This document shows positions 6,230 to 20,999 of a stretch of 53,530 bases of DNA, in pieces. Origin of the DNA: Clostridiales bacterium (GTDB taxonomy: Bacteria > Bacillota > Clostridia > Christensenellales > DTU072). Made by a program: the position numbers and the translations under genes. The stretch spans positions 1 through 53,530 of the forward strand of contig JAAZJD010000060.1 in the NCBI GenBank assembly GCA_012800525.1, written 5' to 3'. Position 1 is the stretch's first letter. Every line of letters begins with the position of its first letter. The notes under the pieces are model-generated. The model saw only the letters and a list, made by a program, of their open reading frames with translations. It ran no database searches and had not been told where the DNA came from.

Positions 6230-7369
6230 ATGAGTTTAGAAAAATACAGAAGTGAAATAGATAATATAGATAATGAGATATCAGCTTTATTTAAAAGGAG
6301 AATGGAAGTAGCAAAAGATATCGCAATTGCAAAAAGGACTGAAGGAAAGCCAATTGTCAATGTAGTAAGAGAAAAGGAAATAATTAATAGAGTTTCTAGC
6401 ATGATGCCTATTGAATTAAAACTTTACTCAAAGCAAGTTTTTAATACTATTTTTGATGTAAGTAAAGCATATCAAACAACCTTTTTTAATGACAAAAGTA
6501 AAACAAAAGATAAAATAGCAGGTATTTTAGAAAAGGGATTAGAAAGTTTTCCCGTAGAAGCAAATGTTGCTTGTCAAGGCGTAGCTGGTTCATATTCAAG
6601 TATTACAGCAGAAAGACTTTTTGAGATATCAAACATATTATATTTTAAAGACTTTGAAGGAGTTTTTAATGCAGTTGATAAAGGTCTTTGTCAATACGGT
6701 ATTTTGCCGATAGAAAATAGTTCAGTTGGAAGTGTAAATAAAGTATACGATTTAATGAATAAACATAGCTTTTATATAGTGAAAAGTTATAAGTTAAGAG
6801 TTCAACATTCATTGCTTGTAAAGCCTGGGGTACATATTTCTCAAATAAAAGAAGTTATGTCACATGAGCAAGCGATAGAACAATGTGGCGAATTTTTTAA
6901 AAATCATAAAGACATAAAAGTCACACTTTGTGATAATACTGCTTTAGCTGCAAGGACTGTAGCAGAATCAAATAGAAGAGATTTGGCTTGTATAAGTTCA
7001 AGTGAAGCTGCAAAAATATATAATTTAGAAGAATTGGAGAGAAATATCCAAGACAATGAAAATAATTATACAAGATTTATTGTGATTTCTAGGAATCTAA
7101 AAATTTTTAGAAAAGCCAATAGGATTAGCATAATGGTTAATTTACCACATGTTGCTGGCTCACTTAATAAATTTTTAAATGAATTTTCAATTAGGGGCTT
7201 GAATCTTACAAAGTTGATGTCTAGGCCACAACCTAAAACTCCATTTGAATTTACTTTCTATTTTGATTTTGAGGCAGATATAGAAGATGAGAAAGTTGTA
7301 AACTTAATGAGCATTTTGGAAAATCAAGTGGAAAGATTTGTATTTTTAGGCTGCTATGAAGAGGTTTAA
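6230..7369 (+). CDS. pheA: Bifunctional chorismate mutase / prephenate dehydratase (P-protein)
   Basis: Makes prephenate and then phenylpyruvate. Domain order: AroQ-type chorismate mutase (about 1-85, YRSEIDNIDNEISALFKRRM helix), prephenate dehydratase (about 112-288, with CQGVAGSYS, PIENSSVG at 160-167 and the catalytic TRF at 281-283), then a C-terminal ACT domain (about 299-375, GSL at 310 and SRP at 331). The last two are the Phe-binding motifs of the family (GAL and ESRP), with Met in place of Glu. At 379 residues it resembles the proteobacterial P-protein; many Bacillota have a separate mutase. GGAGG lies upstream, and it abuts the next gene directly (TAA then ATG). Confidence 0.94.
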   Translation: MSLEKYRSEIDNIDNEISALFKRRMEVAKDIAIAKRTEGKPIVNVVREKEIINRVSSMMPIELKLYSKQVFNTIFDVSKAYQTTFFNDKSKTKDKIAGILEKGLESFPVEANVACQGVAGSYSSITAERLFEISNILYFKDFEGVFNAVDKGLCQYGILPIENSSVGSVNKVYDLMNKHSFYIVKSYKLRVQHSLLVKPGVHISQIKEVMSHEQAIEQCGEFFKNHKDIKVTLCDNTALAARTVAESNRRDLACISSSEAAKIYNLEELERNIQDNENNYTRFIVISRNLKIFRKANRISIMVNLPHVAGSLNKFLNEFSIRGLNLTKLMSRPQPKTPFEFTFYFDFEADIEDEKVVNLMSILENQVERFVFLGCYEEV

Positions 7370-13855: not shown

Positions 13856-13881
13856 AATTTAAGCAAACAAACAATTAATTA

Positions 13882-13915
13882 AAAACTGCTAGACTTTGGC
13901 AGTTTTTTTATTTTT
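13882..13915 (+). terminator. Terminator after glnS
   Basis: Stem AAAACTGC (13882-13889) / GCAGTTTT (13899-13906) with a nine-base loop runs into a T-rich stretch. It separates glnS from the membrane-protein operon. Confidence 0.85.
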
Positions 13916-14207: not shown

Positions 14208-14236
14208 TTGTAATTTTATCCTCTTGCTTGTATAAT
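14208..14236 (+). promoter_or_regulatory. Promoter of the eight-gene motif/membrane-protein operon
   Basis: TTGTAA (14208-14213), exactly 17 bases and TATAAT (14231-14236) lie about 84 bases before the first gene. No terminator-like hairpin was found until 20732, so this promoter could drive the whole cluster. Confidence 0.7.
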
Positions 14237-14319: not shown

Positions 14320-15531
14320 ATGGTTAAGTGCAAATACTGTGGTGAAATGAATTTAGAAGACGGCAAGTATTGTGCAAGGTGTGGGCAAGAGTTGCCATCT
14401 AACGATAACACCGCAATGAAAGATACTTTGTCGAAAGCACAAAAAAGTTTTGATAGAGATTCACTAGTTACTTTAGAGCGTTCAAGAATAACTTATGTTT
14501 GCACGGTTTGTGGAAACATAAATAGCATAGAGCAAGATAGGTGTGATACATGCGGAAAGCCTAGACCTAGAAGCGAGTATGTTGCAGCTCTTAGGAAATT
14601 AAAACAATCTGGAAGAATTCAACCTGAGCAACAAAAGCCAGCACCTCAACCTCAAACTCCAATAGAAGAAGATGTTAAACTTAAAGAGGATACACCAGTC
14701 CAAGCTCCAATCCCAGTTCAAGCAAGTTATCCACAAGTTTCAGGCGGACAGTTGCCAGCTGCGGTACAACCTTTTGTTGTGGTCCCATATGTAAATACGC
14801 AACAGCCATTGTGGCAATATAGACCAAATCAAGTTTACAGATTCCAACCATATACTCAAGAAGAAATTGAGATTATGAAGGAAAAACAAGCAGCCGCTCA
14901 AGCACAAGTGCAAGAAGTTGCTGATAGAGTAACAGCTGAAGAAAAAGAAAAAACTGAAGTAGCCAAGTTCCCCGGAGCAAAGAGAGTAAGAGTTACTGCA
15001 TTTTTAACTTTGATTATTGCACTGGGTATAGTTGCTAGCATGTTTTTGGCTCCTTGCACAAAATCAGGGAATAAAGCATCATTTTATTTGTTTGGAATTG
15101 TTGATTGCTTTAACGAGATGGGCGTTCTTTTAGGAACGGTACCTACAGATTATCAATATAAAGGTTGGCAATTTTTTGTTCCACCAGTTTTACTAACAGT
15201 TGCATCAATACTAATTGTTGCTTTGATTATTCGTTCAATTATTAGGCTCATTACTGGAAAAGCAAGCGTTAAAGGCTTTGTTTTACCATTATTTATTTTT
15301 TTGACAGTAGCTGGTGCACTAATTGGCATAGTTGAGCAAGTTTTAATTGAACAAGGCTCAGGAATAGCAAGTGGTGAGCTTGTAGCATACTTCACCGAAT
15401 ATGCGGATATTGGAACATACTTAATTCCTGCTCTTGCATTGGTTTTGGTTATTGTTGCTCTTTTCAATAAGGCAAACGTGTTAACAAGAAGAAAAATCAA
15501 AAAAATGGAAAAAGAGCAAGAAGAAGAATAA
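14320..15531 (+). CDS. Unknown membrane protein: two zinc ribbons, QL...VQP..VPY motif, four TM helices
   Basis: 403 residues, function unknown. The N-terminal cytosolic part has two CxxC...CxxC zinc ribbons (Cys4, 7, 18, 21 and Cys61, 64, 75, 78; the second resembles RanBP2-type). A Pro/Gln-rich linker (100-143) follows, then the shared motif at 144-157 (QLPAAVQPFVVVPY). An Ala/Glu/Lys helix (about 180-215) leads to four predicted TM segments (about 225-244, 286-308, 320-340, 366-383) and a charged C-terminus. Basic residues before TM1 suggest that the N- and C-termini are inside. It is the first gene of the operon and shares motif and topology with its neighbours, suggesting that it acts with them at the membrane. 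Confidence 0.8.
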   Translation: MVKCKYCGEMNLEDGKYCARCGQELPSNDNTAMKDTLSKAQKSFDRDSLVTLERSRITYVCTVCGNINSIEQDRCDTCGKPRPRSEYVAALRKLKQSGRIQPEQQKPAPQPQTPIEEDVKLKEDTPVQAPIPVQASYPQVSGGQLPAAVQPFVVVPYVNTQQPLWQYRPNQVYRFQPYTQEEIEIMKEKQAAAQAQVQEVADRVTAEEKEKTEVAKFPGAKRVRVTAFLTLIIALGIVASMFLAPCTKSGNKASFYLFGIVDCFNEMGVLLGTVPTDYQYKGWQFFVPPVLLTVASILIVALIIRSIIRLITGKASVKGFVLPLFIFLTVAGALIGIVEQVLIEQGSGIASGELVAYFTEYADIGTYLIPALALVLVIVALFNKANVLTRRKIKKMEKEQEEE

Positions 15532-15583
15532 TATAAAACTGCAAAGACAGATAGATTTATATAATATTTAGGAGAAATAAAAC

Positions 15584-16519
15584 ATGGCAAAAAAATCAGA
15601 TAAAATGGGAATAGGGCAATTTTATGAAGCTCCCGCAAATAGGTTTTATGTAGATGAAAGAGATATGAGTTCTCCATATCTTATGTCATATTATGCTGCA
15701 AGAAGCACAGGGCCACTGATTGTAAATAAACCTAAATCAGATCCTTTTGCAGCTAGACAAGCAGCTAGAGATTCAAGTGAAGTTAAAAAAGCAAAAAAAG
15801 CAAAACAATCAGCAGCAGGACAACAAAAGGTAAAAAGAAATTTCTTTGTTGTGTTGACTTTGTTACTGGTTGTAGTTTTGATTGCGTTTTTAGCAATTAG
15901 CTATGTCGGAATAGATGCAATTGTAGATTACACATCAATTGCAGTAAAGAAAACCACCATAGGTGAAGGTGAAGAGGCTGAGACAACGGTTGAAAACATT
16001 GGTTTAGATGATATTGTAATGGGAACTGTTCAAAGTTTTACAAAGAAACCAGTTGAAGCCGAGGCTGCTGAAGAAGGAGAAACAGGGGCAGAGGAAGAGG
16101 CCGCAGAAGAAAAAGTTTATGTTTATTACTCAGATAGAATGGAAAATGTTGCTTCTTTAGATACAGTTGGCAAGATGTCAGCTTATGGATTGCCAGTAGG
16201 ACTTGCTGTTTTTGCTGTCGTAGCAATTGTATTTTTAATTAGATTGATAATATCGGTATTTACCCCAAAGAGAAGAAAATTCTTTGTGTTGAGCGGTATT
16301 GTACTACTAGTATTAGGAGTTGTTATAAACCTATTCCTATATATGTGGTCTGCAGGTACTGATTTTTCAAAAATATCAGAATTCATTTATCTATTCGCCA
16401 AAGATTCTGAATTAGCTATTCAAGCTGGAGTCGGAGCATTGGTGCTTATAGGACTACCATTATTGATTACAATTACATCCATATTTTGCTTTAGAAGCAA
16501 AAAGAAATTTGGGAAATAA
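15584..16519 (+). CDS. Unknown four-TM membrane protein without the VPY motif
   Basis: 311 residues. The basic cytosolic N-terminus (1-86) contains Tyr-rich and Lys/Ala-rich parts. TM1 is at about 87-109; a long, presumably external loop (110-200) is very acidic (EAEAAEEGETGAEEEAAEE). TM2-TM4 follow at about 201-226, 233-254 and 279-303, with a basic tail. The segment NIGLDDIVMGTVQSFTKKP (138-156) is closely matched in the protein at 16982-18139 (GLDD, then G, then KKP), making the two paralogues. It lacks the QL...VPY motif but is followed 14 bases later by a small gene that carries it. GGAGAA ribosome binding site. No known family recognised. Confidence 0.75.
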   Translation: MAKKSDKMGIGQFYEAPANRFYVDERDMSSPYLMSYYAARSTGPLIVNKPKSDPFAARQAARDSSEVKKAKKAKQSAAGQQKVKRNFFVVLTLLLVVVLIAFLAISYVGIDAIVDYTSIAVKKTTIGEGEEAETTVENIGLDDIVMGTVQSFTKKPVEAEAAEEGETGAEEEAAEEKVYVYYSDRMENVASLDTVGKMSAYGLPVGLAVFAVVAIVFLIRLIISVFTPKRRKFFVLSGIVLLVLGVVINLFLYMWSAGTDFSKISEFIYLFAKDSELAIQAGVGALVLIGLPLLITITSIFCFRSKKKFGK

Positions 16520-16533
16520 AGGAGGAAATCATA

Positions 16534-16896
16534 GTGTCTCGTAAAGAAAGAAGAAAAGAAAAAGAAAGGCAAGAACAGCTTTTACAAGCTAGGCCACAAG
16601 GTCAATATCCTGCTGGCCCAAGGTACTATAATCAAGGGATGCCCCCACAAGGAAACTATCCAAATTATGGACCACCTATGCCTCCTGCTGGAGCTCCGGT
16701 AGCACAAGCACCGGTAAGATTTAAGACTAGATGGAGAAGGATTAATAACAATGGTCCAGTTCCAGTAGCACCACCAGCAGATTTTATTCAATTGACTCCA
16801 ATAGTACAGCCTATACCATTGGTTCCTTATTCAACTCAAATGCAACCACTTGCAACATTTGATGAAGAATATGATGATTTTGATGATTTTTATTAA
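16534..16896 (+). CDS. Unknown small Pro-rich soluble protein with QL...VQP..VPY motif
   Basis: 120 residues, no TM segment. Order: a highly basic N-terminus (SRKERRKEKERQ), a Pro/Gly/Tyr-rich middle (20-60), GPVPVAPPADFI, then the motif QLTPIVQPIPLVPY (86-99) and an acidic/aromatic tail ending in DDFDDFY. The start is GTG at 16534, chosen because a perfect GGAGG lies eight bases upstream; the next downstream Met would lose the basic region. It is paralogous to 18167-18430 (same GPVP..PxDFIQLTP core and DDFY end). It probably partners the four-TM protein encoded immediately upstream, which lacks the motif. Function unknown. Confidence 0.75.
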   Translation: MSRKERRKEKERQEQLLQARPQGQYPAGPRYYNQGMPPQGNYPNYGPPMPPAGAPVAQAPVRFKTRWRRINNNGPVPVAPPADFIQLTPIVQPIPLVPYSTQMQPLATFDEEYDDFDDFY

Positions 16897-16981
16897 AATT
16901 CATCATTAGTTGATATAATCTTATTTAAGGATATAATAATATAATAATTTATTATATATAGATTAGGAGAGATTTACTAGC

Positions 16982-18139
16982 ATGGCAAAACAAGCAAAAC
17001 CAATTCAACCGTATCGTGGCGGAGTAAGACCAGCACCTGGAGTAGGAAGGCCTTACCCTGTGCGTCCTGGAACCCCAAGACCAACAGGTCAAAGACCTGT
17101 GCCAAGACGACCTGAACCTATTCCTGTTAAAAAGAATAGAAGGAAAGAGCGGGAATATTTTTTCATAATGAAAAGAGGCATTTGTTTTTTCATTATGGTT
17201 TTTGCATTGGTGTGGCTTGCAGTTTTTGCTTTAAGTTTCCTTAAAATATTACCAAATTTCACATCCATTTTGATTGAACCAGATAGGACACCAATTTCTT
17301 TGAGAGAAGAGCAAGCAACTGATGAGCTTGATGAAGATGGCAATCCTATAATCCAAGAATATGAAGATAAGAGTGTTTTTATCGGTCTTGATGATATGAT
17401 TTATGGTTCTATTGGTAAATTATTGAAAAAACCACAAGTAGATGCAGATGGAGCCTCTAAATCACCATATTATGATAATTTAATGAAAGAGATAGACACT
17501 ATAAATGGTGCTGCATCTGAAAATGCTGACACGGAAGGTGAGCCAGAAGCTGAAGAAAATCCTGCAGCTACAAGTAGCTTATATTTGGCAGGTGAAGAAG
17601 AAGGTGGGGATGCTGAAGGTGAGGAATCAGAAGAAACGCCAGTTGTAGATGAAAGAGGTGAAGTTGCAGCTGAAGATACAATGTTTTCAATTGGCACCAT
17701 GGCTGTAACCTATTTTCCAATAGTATTAGCAGTAGGAGTAGTTTTAGCGCTTTTAATATTATTGTTAGCCTTTTTTGCCTTGTTTGGAAGACGTATTTTT
17801 AGAGGCTTTACGATAATGGCAATTTTATTGCTAGTTGTTGGAGTTCTTACTTTACTTGGTGGAATAGCAGCTTCAGGAATACGCCAAGGATTACCTACAA
17901 AAGATTCAGAAACTGGCGAAGTGACTAGCATAATAGACTTTTCTAGAATTGTTGAGTTTTTAACTGGTAGTTTTACTCCTGTGCCAGAAGAAGAAGTCGA
18001 AGTTGAAGAAGGTCAATTGGCAGATTTAACTGCCGTAGGAGGAATACCACTCCTAGTCTTTGCGGTGGCTCCAGTAGCAATCCTAGTTTTATCCTTCTTT
18101 ACAAAAAAGAAAGTGCCATATAGTATTTTTGATAGATAG
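16982..18139 (+). CDS. Unknown four-TM membrane protein with acidic external loop, paralogue of 15584-16519
   Basis: 385 residues. The N-terminal 60 residues are Pro/Arg/Gly-rich and basic, hence cytosolic. TM1 is at about 64-88. An external loop (90-243) is strongly acidic and low-complexity and contains FIGLDDMIYGSIGKLLKKP (133-151), matching the upstream paralogue. TM2-TM4 are at about 244-268, 275-297 and 352-373, with another acidic patch (335-344) between TM3 and TM4. It has no QL...VPY motif, but the next gene, 27 bases on, supplies it. An AGGAGA ribosome binding site lies somewhat far (about 11 bases) from the ATG. The preceding 85-base gap is AT-rich with TATAAT-like strings, so an internal promoter is possible. 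Confidence 0.75.
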   Translation: MAKQAKPIQPYRGGVRPAPGVGRPYPVRPGTPRPTGQRPVPRRPEPIPVKKNRRKEREYFFIMKRGICFFIMVFALVWLAVFALSFLKILPNFTSILIEPDRTPISLREEQATDELDEDGNPIIQEYEDKSVFIGLDDMIYGSIGKLLKKPQVDADGASKSPYYDNLMKEIDTINGAASENADTEGEPEAEENPAATSSLYLAGEEEGGDAEGEESEETPVVDERGEVAAEDTMFSIGTMAVTYFPIVLAVGVVLALLILLLAFFALFGRRIFRGFTIMAILLLVVGVLTLLGGIAASGIRQGLPTKDSETGEVTSIIDFSRIVEFLTGSFTPVPEEEVEVEEGQLADLTAVGGIPLLVFAVAPVAILVLSFFTKKKVPYSIFDR

Positions 18140-18166
18140 ATTTAGGATATTTAATAGAGGTGGAAA

Positions 18167-18430
18167 ATGTCTAGAAAAAACAAAAAGAAAGATTTACAAA
18201 ATGAAGGGATGCAAATGTCAAGAAAGACATATACTTTCAGAGTCTTGAATACGACAGGACCAGTTCCAATTGCAAGACCTAACGATTTTATTCAATTAAC
18301 TCCAGCTGTACAACCAGTTCCAATTGTTCCTTATACTGATTCGCAAGGGGCATTTGGCGGAGATCCATATGCTGGAGAAGGTGTTGATGATTATAATGAA
18401 GATTATGATTATAGCGACGATTTTTATTAG
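18167..18430 (+). CDS. Unknown small soluble protein with QL...VQP..VPY motif
   Basis: 87 residues, no TM segment. Basic start (MSRKNKKKD), then FRVLNTTGPVPIARPNDFI, the motif QLTPAVQPVPIVPY (43-56), a Gly-rich patch and an acidic/aromatic end DYDYSDDFY. It is clearly paralogous to the 120-residue protein at 16534, without the Pro/Gly/Tyr middle. It sits between two four-TM genes of the same operon (27 bases from each neighbour). GAGGTGG ribosome binding site. Function unknown; it is probably a motif-bearing partner of the upstream four-TM protein. Confidence 0.75.
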   Translation: MSRKNKKKDLQNEGMQMSRKTYTFRVLNTTGPVPIARPNDFIQLTPAVQPVPIVPYTDSQGAFGGDPYAGEGVDDYNEDYDYSDDFY

Positions 18431-18457
18431 GAAATAATGCCAAAGGAGGACTTTAAA

Positions 18458-19312
18458 ATGGCAAAGAAAGATAAAAACAAAGAAAAAGCTGTCCAAGTTA
18501 ATGCTGTTCCAGCACAAGGACAACCACAACCAGGTCTACCAAGACCAGCAAGAAGGCCATCTAAACCATTACAACTCAACCCAATTATACAGCCAATTGC
18601 ATTTGTTCCTTATTCAACACAACAACAAGAGTTGTATATGTGGGAAGAAGAACAACAATATGATGGAGGCCCATACTATGATGCACAAGCACAAGCAGCA
18701 AGTGCAGCTTATGATGTAGCCGCTCCAGCTTATGGTGATTCTTCATATCAAGCAAGTGCAGGTGCATATGATCAAGGTTATTATGGTGGATATGGTTATC
18801 AAGACTATGGATATGGATATGCTCCAGCTCCAGTAGCTTCAGTAGAAACTAAAAAGAAGAAAAAAGTTAGTGCAGCGGCAATAATTTTGATTATTCTTTC
18901 ACTCCTTTCAATTGCATTAATTGTAGTAGGAAAATTTTTGAACCAAAGCTTTCTACTAATGACAGGCGAAACATCAGGCTTAGATATGATTATTAATTTC
19001 TTTAATGATATGATAGCTGGTGCAGAATTTGGTGAAGCTATGATAATGCCAATAGCAGTATTGGTTGTAGCAGTAGGTGCAGTAATAGTACTTTTAGGTT
19101 CATTATTTGGACTATTTAAAAAAGGCGCAACTGTTTTTGCTAAGTTAGGCGCATGCCTTGCTTTCATTGGAGCATTAGTAGGATTAGTAGTAGGATTAAT
19201 TAAAGCTGATACAGTTCAAATTCAAATTGGATTCTATATTTTGGTTGGTATTGCTGCTTTAACATTAATAATAGCTTTCGCAGCAAAAAATGCCCCAAAA
19301 GCAAAAAAATAG
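18458..19312 (+). CDS. Unknown membrane protein: QL...VPY motif, Tyr/Ala/Gly-rich linker, four TM helices
   Basis: 284 residues. I use the ATG at 18458 because AAAGGAGG lies just before it; an in-frame ATG at 18437 would add seven residues and has no ribosome binding site. Basic N-terminus, Pro/Gln-rich stretch, motif QLNPIIQPIAFVPY (39-52), then a low-complexity Tyr/Gly/Ala/Gln linker (60-125), a Lys5 run (132-136), and four TM segments (about 137-158, 196-219, 228-248, 256-275). After TM1 a GLDMIINFFNDMI segment (174-186) echoes the GLDD segment of its paralogues. Motif and membrane domain are in one chain here, unlike the two preceding pairs. Confidence 0.78.
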   Translation: MAKKDKNKEKAVQVNAVPAQGQPQPGLPRPARRPSKPLQLNPIIQPIAFVPYSTQQQELYMWEEEQQYDGGPYYDAQAQAASAAYDVAAPAYGDSSYQASAGAYDQGYYGGYGYQDYGYGYAPAPVASVETKKKKKVSAAAIILIILSLLSIALIVVGKFLNQSFLLMTGETSGLDMIINFFNDMIAGAEFGEAMIMPIAVLVVAVGAVIVLLGSLFGLFKKGATVFAKLGACLAFIGALVGLVVGLIKADTVQIQIGFYILVGIAALTLIIAFAAKNAPKAKK

Positions 19313-19353
19313 AAAGTTAAATTTCTAAAAAACATACAGAGAGGAAGAGATTA

Positions 19354-19713
19354 ATGTGTAAAAGATTTAGACGAAGAAAAGAGCCGATACATGACGGTTT
19401 ACAGCGCTCAAATGTGCCGACAAGACAATTGCAAGATTCGGCATATCCTATAGCGCAAGCACCATCACAATCGATGCCTATGCCAAATACCAGTGCCTTT
19501 CATGTGGCACCAAATGGCATGCCAATGGGATTACCGACATATTCATCTGTAGATGAGTATGGAAGGGTATATACTCCCATAATGCATTATGGACCACAGC
19601 CAGTTAGTGCGCCGATGCCTATAGCTAAGCCAGCAAGTATTGTTCAATTAGCTCCAATAGTATCGCCAGTGGCCTTTGTTCCATTTAGTGCTCAAGAGGA
19701 TAATGAAGCATAG
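19354..19713 (+). CDS. Unknown small soluble protein with degenerate QL...VSP..VPF motif
   Basis: 119 residues, no TM segment. Very basic N-terminus (MCKRFRRRKE), a Pro/Met-rich middle, then QLAPIVSPVAFVPF (98-111) near the C-terminus with a short acidic end. The Gln-Pro step is Ser-Pro and the final Tyr is Phe, so it is the most divergent copy of the motif. AGAGAGGAAGAG precedes the ATG. It lies 14 bases before the last gene of the operon. Function unknown; it is the third stand-alone carrier of the motif. Confidence 0.75.
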   Translation: MCKRFRRRKEPIHDGLQRSNVPTRQLQDSAYPIAQAPSQSMPMPNTSAFHVAPNGMPMGLPTYSSVDEYGRVYTPIMHYGPQPVSAPMPIAKPASIVQLAPIVSPVAFVPFSAQEDNEA

Positions 19714-19727
19714 AGGAGGGCATTGAG

Positions 19728-20693
19728 ATGGATAAAAATAATAACAACAATAGTATGGTTGATTATGGAAGATGGGTTCCTGTTGATGAAAGTCAGTTAG
19801 GATTTAAATTACCACCAATTCCTACAAATCAACCCGTAGCAGGTCCTGATGGTTCGTTGTATTGTGTAGGCGATTCGAAGCCTGAACTAAGTTCAGTTGG
19901 TGCAAATACCAACAATGCAATTCCAACACCATCATCTATAGTGCAAATGCCATCTATAGTACAACCTATAGCATTGGTGCCTTATACAACACAAAATCAA
20001 CCTATGCTTCAATATGACCCATATTCAAGGCCAGTTGAACCAGAAGGTGCGCCAAAGGCTCCAGTTTATATAAAGAAACCATATAGACCTATAAGTTTTA
20101 CGGCATTTGTGATAGCACTTGTTGCGCTGATAGTATTTTTACTATTTGCAGTTGTGGCATTCCAAGAAAACTCAGCAAGAGAAGCTTTTAAAGCAAATGG
20201 AATTGAGTTGATTAGTGCAGTAGATAATGTGTTTAATTTAGATAGTACTACGCCCTATGGTTCGATAATTGCAGAAAAAAGTGGAGACACTTTTGGCAAG
20301 ATAGTTGTTTATGCATTGCCATTTTTGTCAATAATAGTGGTTGTATTCTTCGTTCTATTAGCATTTAAATATCTGCTTAGATTTTTCACAAAGAAATCTC
20401 CTAGATCATTTAGTGTTCTTGCTTTTTTAAACATCATAGTAACAGCTTTGATGTTTGTAGGGTTATTAATAATGAGCAATGCTGAAGTGCCAATAGATGC
20501 TAGAGCTATGAATACTAGAGCATTTTTTGCATTAGAAGCATCTCCAGCAACCATAATGGGTAAATGGGCGCTAGGTTTTGCCCTTGTGGCATCAATTGTG
20601 CTATTTATTATTCCATTCTTTGCAAGGAAGAATGCATATATGATAGAGCGTGATGATCCAGCAAATAAGACATATATAATTTCAGCTGAATAA
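19728..20693 (+). CDS. Unknown membrane protein: QM...VQP..VPY motif and four TM helices
   Basis: 321 residues, last gene of the operon. The N-terminal region is Asn/Pro-rich (MDKNNNNNS) and carries the motif QMPSIVQPIALVPY (73-86), followed by TTQNQPMLQYDPYSRP. The PLWQY at the same place in the first protein of the cluster matches PMLQY here. TM segments are at about 123-145, 191-213, 228-250 and 279-297. The TM1-TM2 loop holds a less acidic segment with ELISAVDNVFNL in the position of the GLDD region. The basic stretch before TM1 (KKPYR) suggests the motif is cytosolic. GGAGG ribosome binding site; a strong terminator follows. Confidence 0.78.
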   Translation: MDKNNNNNSMVDYGRWVPVDESQLGFKLPPIPTNQPVAGPDGSLYCVGDSKPELSSVGANTNNAIPTPSSIVQMPSIVQPIALVPYTTQNQPMLQYDPYSRPVEPEGAPKAPVYIKKPYRPISFTAFVIALVALIVFLLFAVVAFQENSAREAFKANGIELISAVDNVFNLDSTTPYGSIIAEKSGDTFGKIVVYALPFLSIIVVVFFVLLAFKYLLRFFTKKSPRSFSVLAFLNIIVTALMFVGLLIMSNAEVPIDARAMNTRAFFALEASPATIMGKWALGFALVASIVLFIIPFFARKNAYMIERDDPANKTYIISAE

Positions 20694-20731
20694 TTAAAAA
20701 CACTTTAATCTCTCATAAAGTATAGTTTAAG

Positions 20732-20759
20732 CGGGGCAACAAAAGCCCCGTTTTTATTT
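20732..20759 (+). terminator. Strong terminator closing the motif/membrane-protein operon
   Basis: CGGGGC (20732-20737) pairs with GCCCCG (20745-20750) around AACAAAA, followed by TTTTTATTT. It is the only strong terminator after the one downstream of glnS, which supports treating the eight genes as one unit. Confidence 0.92.
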
Positions 20760-20794: not shown

Positions 20795-20912
20795 TTGTAG
20801 TTTTTAGATTCAATTGATGCTTGCATGAAAATGTTCCTATCACTTGAGGAAACTTGTAGATTTTTAGATTCAATCGATGTTTGCATGAAAATGCTCCTAT
20901 CACTTGAGGAAA
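20795..20912. repeat. Two tandem 60-bp repeats upstream of acpP
   Basis: The unit TTTTTAGATTCAAT...GCATGAAAATG...CCTATCACTTGAGGAAAC starts at 20801 and again at 20861, a 60-base period. The copies differ at about three positions plus one indel near the TTGTAG leader. No coding function; it fills most of the 306-base gap between the operon terminator and acpP. Confidence 0.85.
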
Positions 20913-20999
20913 CTTGAGTTTTGTTATATCATTAAAACTGTAGTCAAAACAAAAAACAATAAATGTTTTGATAAAAAGGTGTCAAAGAGGATAAAAATT

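Follow-up and report, generated by a model that had tools for sequence, protein, structure and literature searches.

Organization of the operon

The stretch of DNA analysed here, referred to as the window, comprises 53,530 nucleotides (nt) from a Clostridiales bacterium (assembly GCA_012800525.1, contig JAAZJD010000060.1, positions 1 to 53,530 of the forward strand). Between 14320 and 20693 it carries eight genes on the plus strand, separated by intergenic gaps of 14–85 nt, of which genes 1, 2, 4, 6 and 8 encode proteins with four transmembrane (TM) segments each and genes 3, 5 and 7 encode small soluble proteins. Six of the eight proteins contain a common sequence module, and the five tetraspans are paralogs that share one homologous four-TM (4TM) domain. 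The operon may encode the subunits of one membrane assembly held together through this module.

Open reading frames (ORFs) were called mechanically. Gene 1 (14320–15531) encodes 403 residues in which two zinc ribbons, CKYCGE...CARCG (14329–14385) and CTVCGN...CDTCG (14500–14556), precede module copy 1 (14725–14832; profile E-value 6.4e-14 in the search of the organism's own genome and 7.4e-12 in another profile search) and a 4TM domain. The cysteines of both ribbons are invariant in 15 orthologs, and the second ribbon, of an eL40/RanBP-like type, matched eL40 chains weakly in a profile search (E 0.009). Genes 2 (15584–16519, 311 residues) and 4 (16982–18139, 385 residues, with large outside loops; predicted template modelling score (pTM) 0.73) encode tetraspans without a module whose TM domains are paralogous at 99.9% probability. 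The C-terminus of gene 4 is an almost invariant KKVPYSIFD[KR], the VPYS of which echoes the module, and a [SN]PYxxxY segment is common to the cytosolic tails of gene 2 and gene 4 orthologs. Small soluble module proteins are encoded by gene 3 (16534–16896, 120 residues, GTG start, acidic C-terminal end DDFDDFY), with copy 2 at 16756–16872 (E 1.2e-19), and by gene 5 (18167–18430, 87 residues), with copy 3 at 18260–18370 (E 2.6e-14). Gene 6 (18458–19312, 284 residues), whose ATG start at 18458, with AAAGGAGG 8 nt upstream, was placed on the evidence of orthologs, combines copy 4 (18539–18658; E 7.1e-19) with a 4TM domain. The soluble product of gene 7 (19354–19713, 119 residues) consists of a DEYGRxxxPxxxYGPQ segment and copy 5 (19612–19710; E 3.0e-15), and that of gene 8 (19728–20693, 321 residues; model pTM 0.61) of a GRWVPVD..GPDGxxY segment, copy 6 (19917–20027; E 3.4e-19) and a 4TM domain.

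Specificity and conservation of the module

The original prediction had described a 14-residue motif in six adjacent proteins. Indeed, a six-frame scan of the window with the pattern Q[LM]xxx[VI][QS]P..VP[YF] gave six matches and no others, at 14749, 16789, 18293, 18572, 19645 and 19944, all of them in these proteins. Shuffling each protein 20,000 times never produced the pattern, and a module profile of 40 positions, derived from relatives together with the window's six copies, found exactly six matches at E ≤ 10 in the organism's own 1.78-Mb genome, all in the operon. A chance or low-complexity origin of the motif was ruled out by these two results. Profiles were used for the motif; a hand-made DNA pattern had matched only unrelated places. 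Two outcomes had been named beforehand as speaking against a shared docking function, namely that the motif would be common genome-wide and that it would be absent from orthologous clusters. The former was not seen in the own-genome search, and the motif was kept in the orthologous clusters of relatives.

The extent of the motif has to be revised, since in the alignments of orthologs the conserved unit spans about 35 residues, not 14 (PVPVAxPxxhhQLxPIVQPIxhVPYSTQxQPLhQYD). Lysine and arginine counts flanking the TM segments fit an N-in/C-in topology with the module in the cytosol, in agreement with the earlier assignment of all copies to this side by the charge rule.

The module is the best-conserved part of genes 8 and 6. 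Among 24 sequences of gene 8, mean pairwise identity was 0.84 in the module versus 0.29 in the membrane part, and 20 of the 21 invariant columns fell in the cytosolic tail. The corresponding identities were 0.62 and 0.26 for gene 6 and 0.63 and 0.20 for gene 1, in which the zinc-ribbon segment was conserved about as well as the module. In the AlphaFold model of gene 8, the predicted local distance difference test score (pLDDT) was below 50 in the module (residues 77–93) and 75–97 in most of the TM bundle, and the module is predicted to be disordered. Conservation together with disorder typically marks a stretch of protein that binds, and suggests a binding role for the module, which may serve as a shared docking site because it appears disordered, is far better conserved than the adjacent membrane domain and also occurs alone in small soluble proteins.

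Paralogy of the tetraspans

Outside the motif the proteins had been considered mostly unrelated, which proved wrong for their membrane parts. When the TM domains alone were compared by hhalign, all ten pairs among the five 4TM proteins scored 85–99.9% probability, those involving the motif-less genes 2 and 4 included. Four unrelated multi-TM families from the same loci, used as controls, scored 0.1–23% against the tetraspan TM domains, which rules out an artefact of TM composition as the source of the signal. The tetraspans are paralogs, and the motif is therefore common to them by descent and not by convergence of unrelated proteins. The suggestion that the motif is shared for docking to one common partner is modified accordingly by this result: the sharing is due to descent, and docking to a single partner would fit a conserved, disordered module that is also found alone in soluble proteins. 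What is left to explain is that the module remained nearly fixed while the membrane domains drifted, and that it was kept on its own in the small proteins.

The families of relatives are given here by anonymous handles (f1, f3, f14, f20 and others). In the sister family f20, a zinc-ribbon and 4TM protein without a convincing module is encoded right after glnS, the gene for glutaminyl-tRNA synthetase (GlnRS), and its 4TM membrane part matched the gene 2 family at 94.5% (controls at most 0.3%). The simplest history is that a zinc-ribbon and 4TM gene gained the module and then multiplied. The origin of the operon can be traced from the module-less zinc-ribbon and 4TM protein of the sister family, through a three-gene set in another family, to the eight-gene set described here. 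Directly 3′ of glnS in f20, at L223:9763–10596, there is also a 277-residue protein of about seven zinc ribbons (14 CxxC).

Distribution and architecture in relatives

The genomes compared were mostly metagenome-assembled, and proteins were clustered by one-pass phmmer. Carriers of the operon are uncultured Clostridia of animal guts and anaerobic digesters, and the named records include Candidatus Stercoripulliclostridium and other metagenome-assembled Clostridia and Christensenellaceae, several of them from the ruminant gut. Within the window's family, 39 of 40 genomes had homologs of gene 1, as did all 26 that are near-complete. Across the order, 67 of 396 genomes carried the module, and scores were convincing only for families f1, f3 and f14; the window's family, f3 and f14 are referred to as the three module families. 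It was present in 39 of 43 f3 genomes and 6 of 6 f14 genomes, and in 23 of 25 and 3 of 3 near-complete genomes of these two families. This near-universality in the module families suggests a core rather than an accessory role. The searches of the class (391 genomes) and of the phylum (299 genomes) each included the window's own genome; the other 390 and 298 gave no credible match, only seven weak ones in all; four of these were inspected, lay among unrelated genes without such a protein, and were taken as chance.

With Z for zinc ribbons, m for the module and 4 for four TM segments, the layout GlnRS / Zm4 / 4 / m / 4 / m / m4 / m / m4 recurs across genera, with variants. In some genomes of the window's family the set lies on two contigs with its parts kept (for example L058 and L141 of genome G018). 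Family f3 has a three-gene form beside GlnRS, consisting of a soluble zinc-ribbon and module protein, a 4TM protein and a module and 4TM protein, and in f14 the set is present without GlnRS. The 184 module proteins of the fetched relatives carry exactly one module each, 98 fused to a 4TM domain and 86 soluble; the module precedes TM1 in 97 of the 98 fused proteins, at a median distance of 32 residues. One genus has extra stand-alone module proteins away from the operon (L183:1413–2364; L184:4198–4410; L139 near 6899–7015), and that at L183 1413–2364 is a small module protein beside an extra 4TM protein.

The cluster adjoins glnS in two families, and in f20 its counterpart lacking the module takes this place; such a position could point to a function tied to GlnRS or to translation, as could the eL40-like zinc ribbon of gene 1. 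Such a function is very improbable, given that the two f14 genomes searched show no GlnRS (only a distant synthetase match, with E-values of 4e-9 and 5e-11) although the cluster is present there with 4 modules, and that other relatives carry module genes on a different contig from glnS.

Because the same module occurs on soluble and on membrane proteins, it might instead be a localisation or sorting signal, directing each protein to, for example, a cell pole, the septum or a growth zone protein; the tetraspans would then be independent, with no need for a single complex. MreC, which many families of the order lack, was found in none of the genomes sampled from the module families, and most genomes sampled from the window's family have no DivIVA, so that other placement systems may exist. 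This correlation is not specific, however: families without the module also lack MreC, and some (f15, f28) lack DivIVA as well. On the same ground, MreC and DivIVA were rejected as systems that the operon might have replaced. The whole set is moreover co-conserved in order, which argues for joint action, and a localisation signal is accordingly considered unlikely, if less remote than a link to GlnRS.

Flanking sequences and expression signals

The operon had been credited with its own promoter and terminator. Two terminator-like stems flank the operon, one at 13881–13907 after glnS and one at 20729–20753 after gene 8, the latter a strong intrinsic terminator on the plus strand (GCGGGGC-AACAAAA-GCCCCGTTT) with a 9-pair stem and a T-run. 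All promoters and terminators were identified as consensus matches only. A promoter-like TTGTAA-17-TATAAT lies 5′ of the operon on the plus strand (14208–14236; 10 of 12 consensus positions), and a second, TTGATA-16-TATAAT (16910–16937, plus strand; 11 of 12), lies inside it, 5′ of gene 4. As the internal site scores better than the one before gene 1, the operon may be expressed as two transcripts; the consensus scan found promoter-like sites in the region in numbers not above those in shuffled sequence. Beyond the operon lie the secE-nusG region and, before it, an acyl-carrier-like ORF. The interval that separates this ORF from the operon's terminator contains, at 20801–20920, two direct repeats of 60 nt that adjoin each other and are 88% alike. 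A search of Rfam gave no match.

Comparison with known families and folds

In agreement with the original prediction that no known family matches, none in Pfam, NCBIfam, PHROG or PADLOC convincingly covered the module or the 4TM domain, and only the zinc ribbons have a model. Gene 1 passes the double zinc ribbon family DZR (PF12773) with 27.8 bits against a cut-off of 27.3, and 15 of 15 orthologs match at E ≤ 0.01; the likeness to DZR proteins is confined to the ribbons, as the model spans neither the module nor the 4TM domain. DUF4064 (PF13273), DUF996 and similar small membrane families gave sub-threshold matches over one or two TM segments, exemplified by gene 2 against DUF4064 (23.6 bits, below the cut-off of 32.1, over 43 residues). 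These differ from the operon proteins in that the matches lie under the curated cut-off or in only 1–3 members, with short overlap. PADLOC and PHROG yielded no match to an anti-phage defence or phage family, only weak matches to zinc-ribbon or TM regions, and nothing significant was found in a library of viral structures. The literature, which was incompletely covered, yielded no description of such a system.

Structure models were of monomers only. The arrangement of gene 1, with its 4TM bundle preceded by zinc ribbons, is reminiscent of the lipid transporters LetA, PqiA and YebS, whose 4TM bundle likewise follows cytosolic ribbons, and LetA is among the structural neighbours of the gene 8 model (9n8w, Z 9.1, 4.0 Å over 143 residues). 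A LetA/PqiA-like transporter unit is nevertheless a most unlikely reading. The family PF04403 was not among the matches of the window proteins to E 1, nor in 15 gene 1 orthologs; an MCE partner (PF02470) was found in 0 of 38 genomes of the window's family, compared with 4 of 14 controls; and a Z of about 9 is within the range of designed four-helix bundles. The operon proteins also differ in having a single bundle.

Among natural structures, claudins and TARPs were the most frequent neighbours of the gene 4 and gene 8 models (Z 8–10.5). Designed four-helix bundles score as high in Z, and Foldseek E-values were 0.06 or above; the fold match may thus reflect only a common arrangement. Profile matches to Claudin_2 of the claudin superfamily (PF00822/PF13903) had E-values of 0.04–0.1 and 12.8–14.2 bits, below the cut-off of 29.1, and claudin-3 gave a weak sequence hint (E 0.026). 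The operon proteins resemble claudin, TARP and GARLH tetraspans in having four TM segments, an N-in/C-in topology and, following TM1, an outside loop that contains short strands. In genes 2, 4, 6 and 8 this first outside loop has no cysteine or tryptophan, hence no W-GLW-C-C claudin signature, and in the operon the putative docking tag is N-terminal and about 35 residues long. Claudins and TARPs are sets of paralogs whose members dock on a scaffold (ZO-1, PSD-95) through a common short motif on the cytosolic side. By analogy, the operon set may work like claudins and TARPs, with a common docking motif for a scaffold.

A proposed membrane assembly

The reading tentatively favoured is that the tetraspans form a single membrane assembly, to which every tetraspan unit contributes one docking module that binds a common partner in the cytosol. 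Five paralogous N-in/C-in tetraspans would sit in the cytoplasmic membrane, and every unit would present one disordered module of about 35 residues on the cytosolic side, either fused N-terminal to TM1, as in genes 1, 6 and 8, or supplied as a small soluble protein, as by genes 3 and 5 after the module-less genes 2 and 4. The module would dock in an extended form on the common partner and so gather the tetraspans into a patch or complex, to which the zinc ribbons of gene 1 could add a further binding head. Paralogy, one module per polypeptide, cytosolic placement, strong module conservation and lineage-wide co-conservation are computed results. We infer in addition the binding of the module to one common partner, a pairing of the small proteins with the tetraspans encoded next to them, and a structural role of the assembly rather than one in transport. 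A membrane-associated assembly or envelope complex had been proposed originally; the former fits these results and the latter remains conjectural.

Several observations weigh against this proposal. The module-less tetraspans show that fusion to each subunit is not needed, some genomes have more tetraspans than modules (2 modules were found in L072), and the shallow alignments (15–25 sequences) make low pLDDT weak evidence of disorder. The presence of a single module on each polypeptide is also compatible with mutual docking of the subunits, in which the module would plug into the cytosolic surface of a neighbouring subunit or into another module, the small proteins would act as linkers and no outside partner would take part. 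The fusion/split pattern, whereby a 4TM gene without the module usually has a soluble module gene directly after it and the other 4TM genes have the module fused, is consistent with mutual docking, and the second small cluster in one genus (L183 1413–2364) again pairs a small module protein with a 4TM protein. The 4TM protein of the sister family lacks the module, which was therefore added to an existing membrane protein. The membrane domain and cytosolic loop of gene 8, however, are poorly conserved (mostly 0.15–0.44 per 20-residue block), not what would be expected of a receptor whose ligand is almost invariant, and the monomer model of gene 8 places the module with confidence nowhere on its own 4TM domain. 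Mutual docking, if somewhat doubtful, is the main alternative to docking on a common partner.

For docking through a conserved peptide there is a bacterial precedent. The C-terminal conserved peptide of FtsZ ends a disordered tail and recruits partners. FtsZ differs in that one peptide on one protein serves many partners, whereas here one module is spread over six proteins. The FtsZ peptide is a topic of PMC12607630.

More speculatively, and with rather low confidence, the operon could be an independently reached bacterial counterpart of the claudin/TARP principle, in which paralogous tetraspans and soluble adaptors with one repeated cytosolic docking code build a membrane scaffold belonging to the core repertoire of a whole lineage in which the MreC elongation system is absent. 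The module peptide could be used as bait for its presumed partner, which would allow the function to be tested directly. If the proposal is true, the operon would represent a lineage-core membrane system without a described family, and its nearly invariant 35-residue module in six proteins would be a rare bacterial docking code that is readable from sequence alone.

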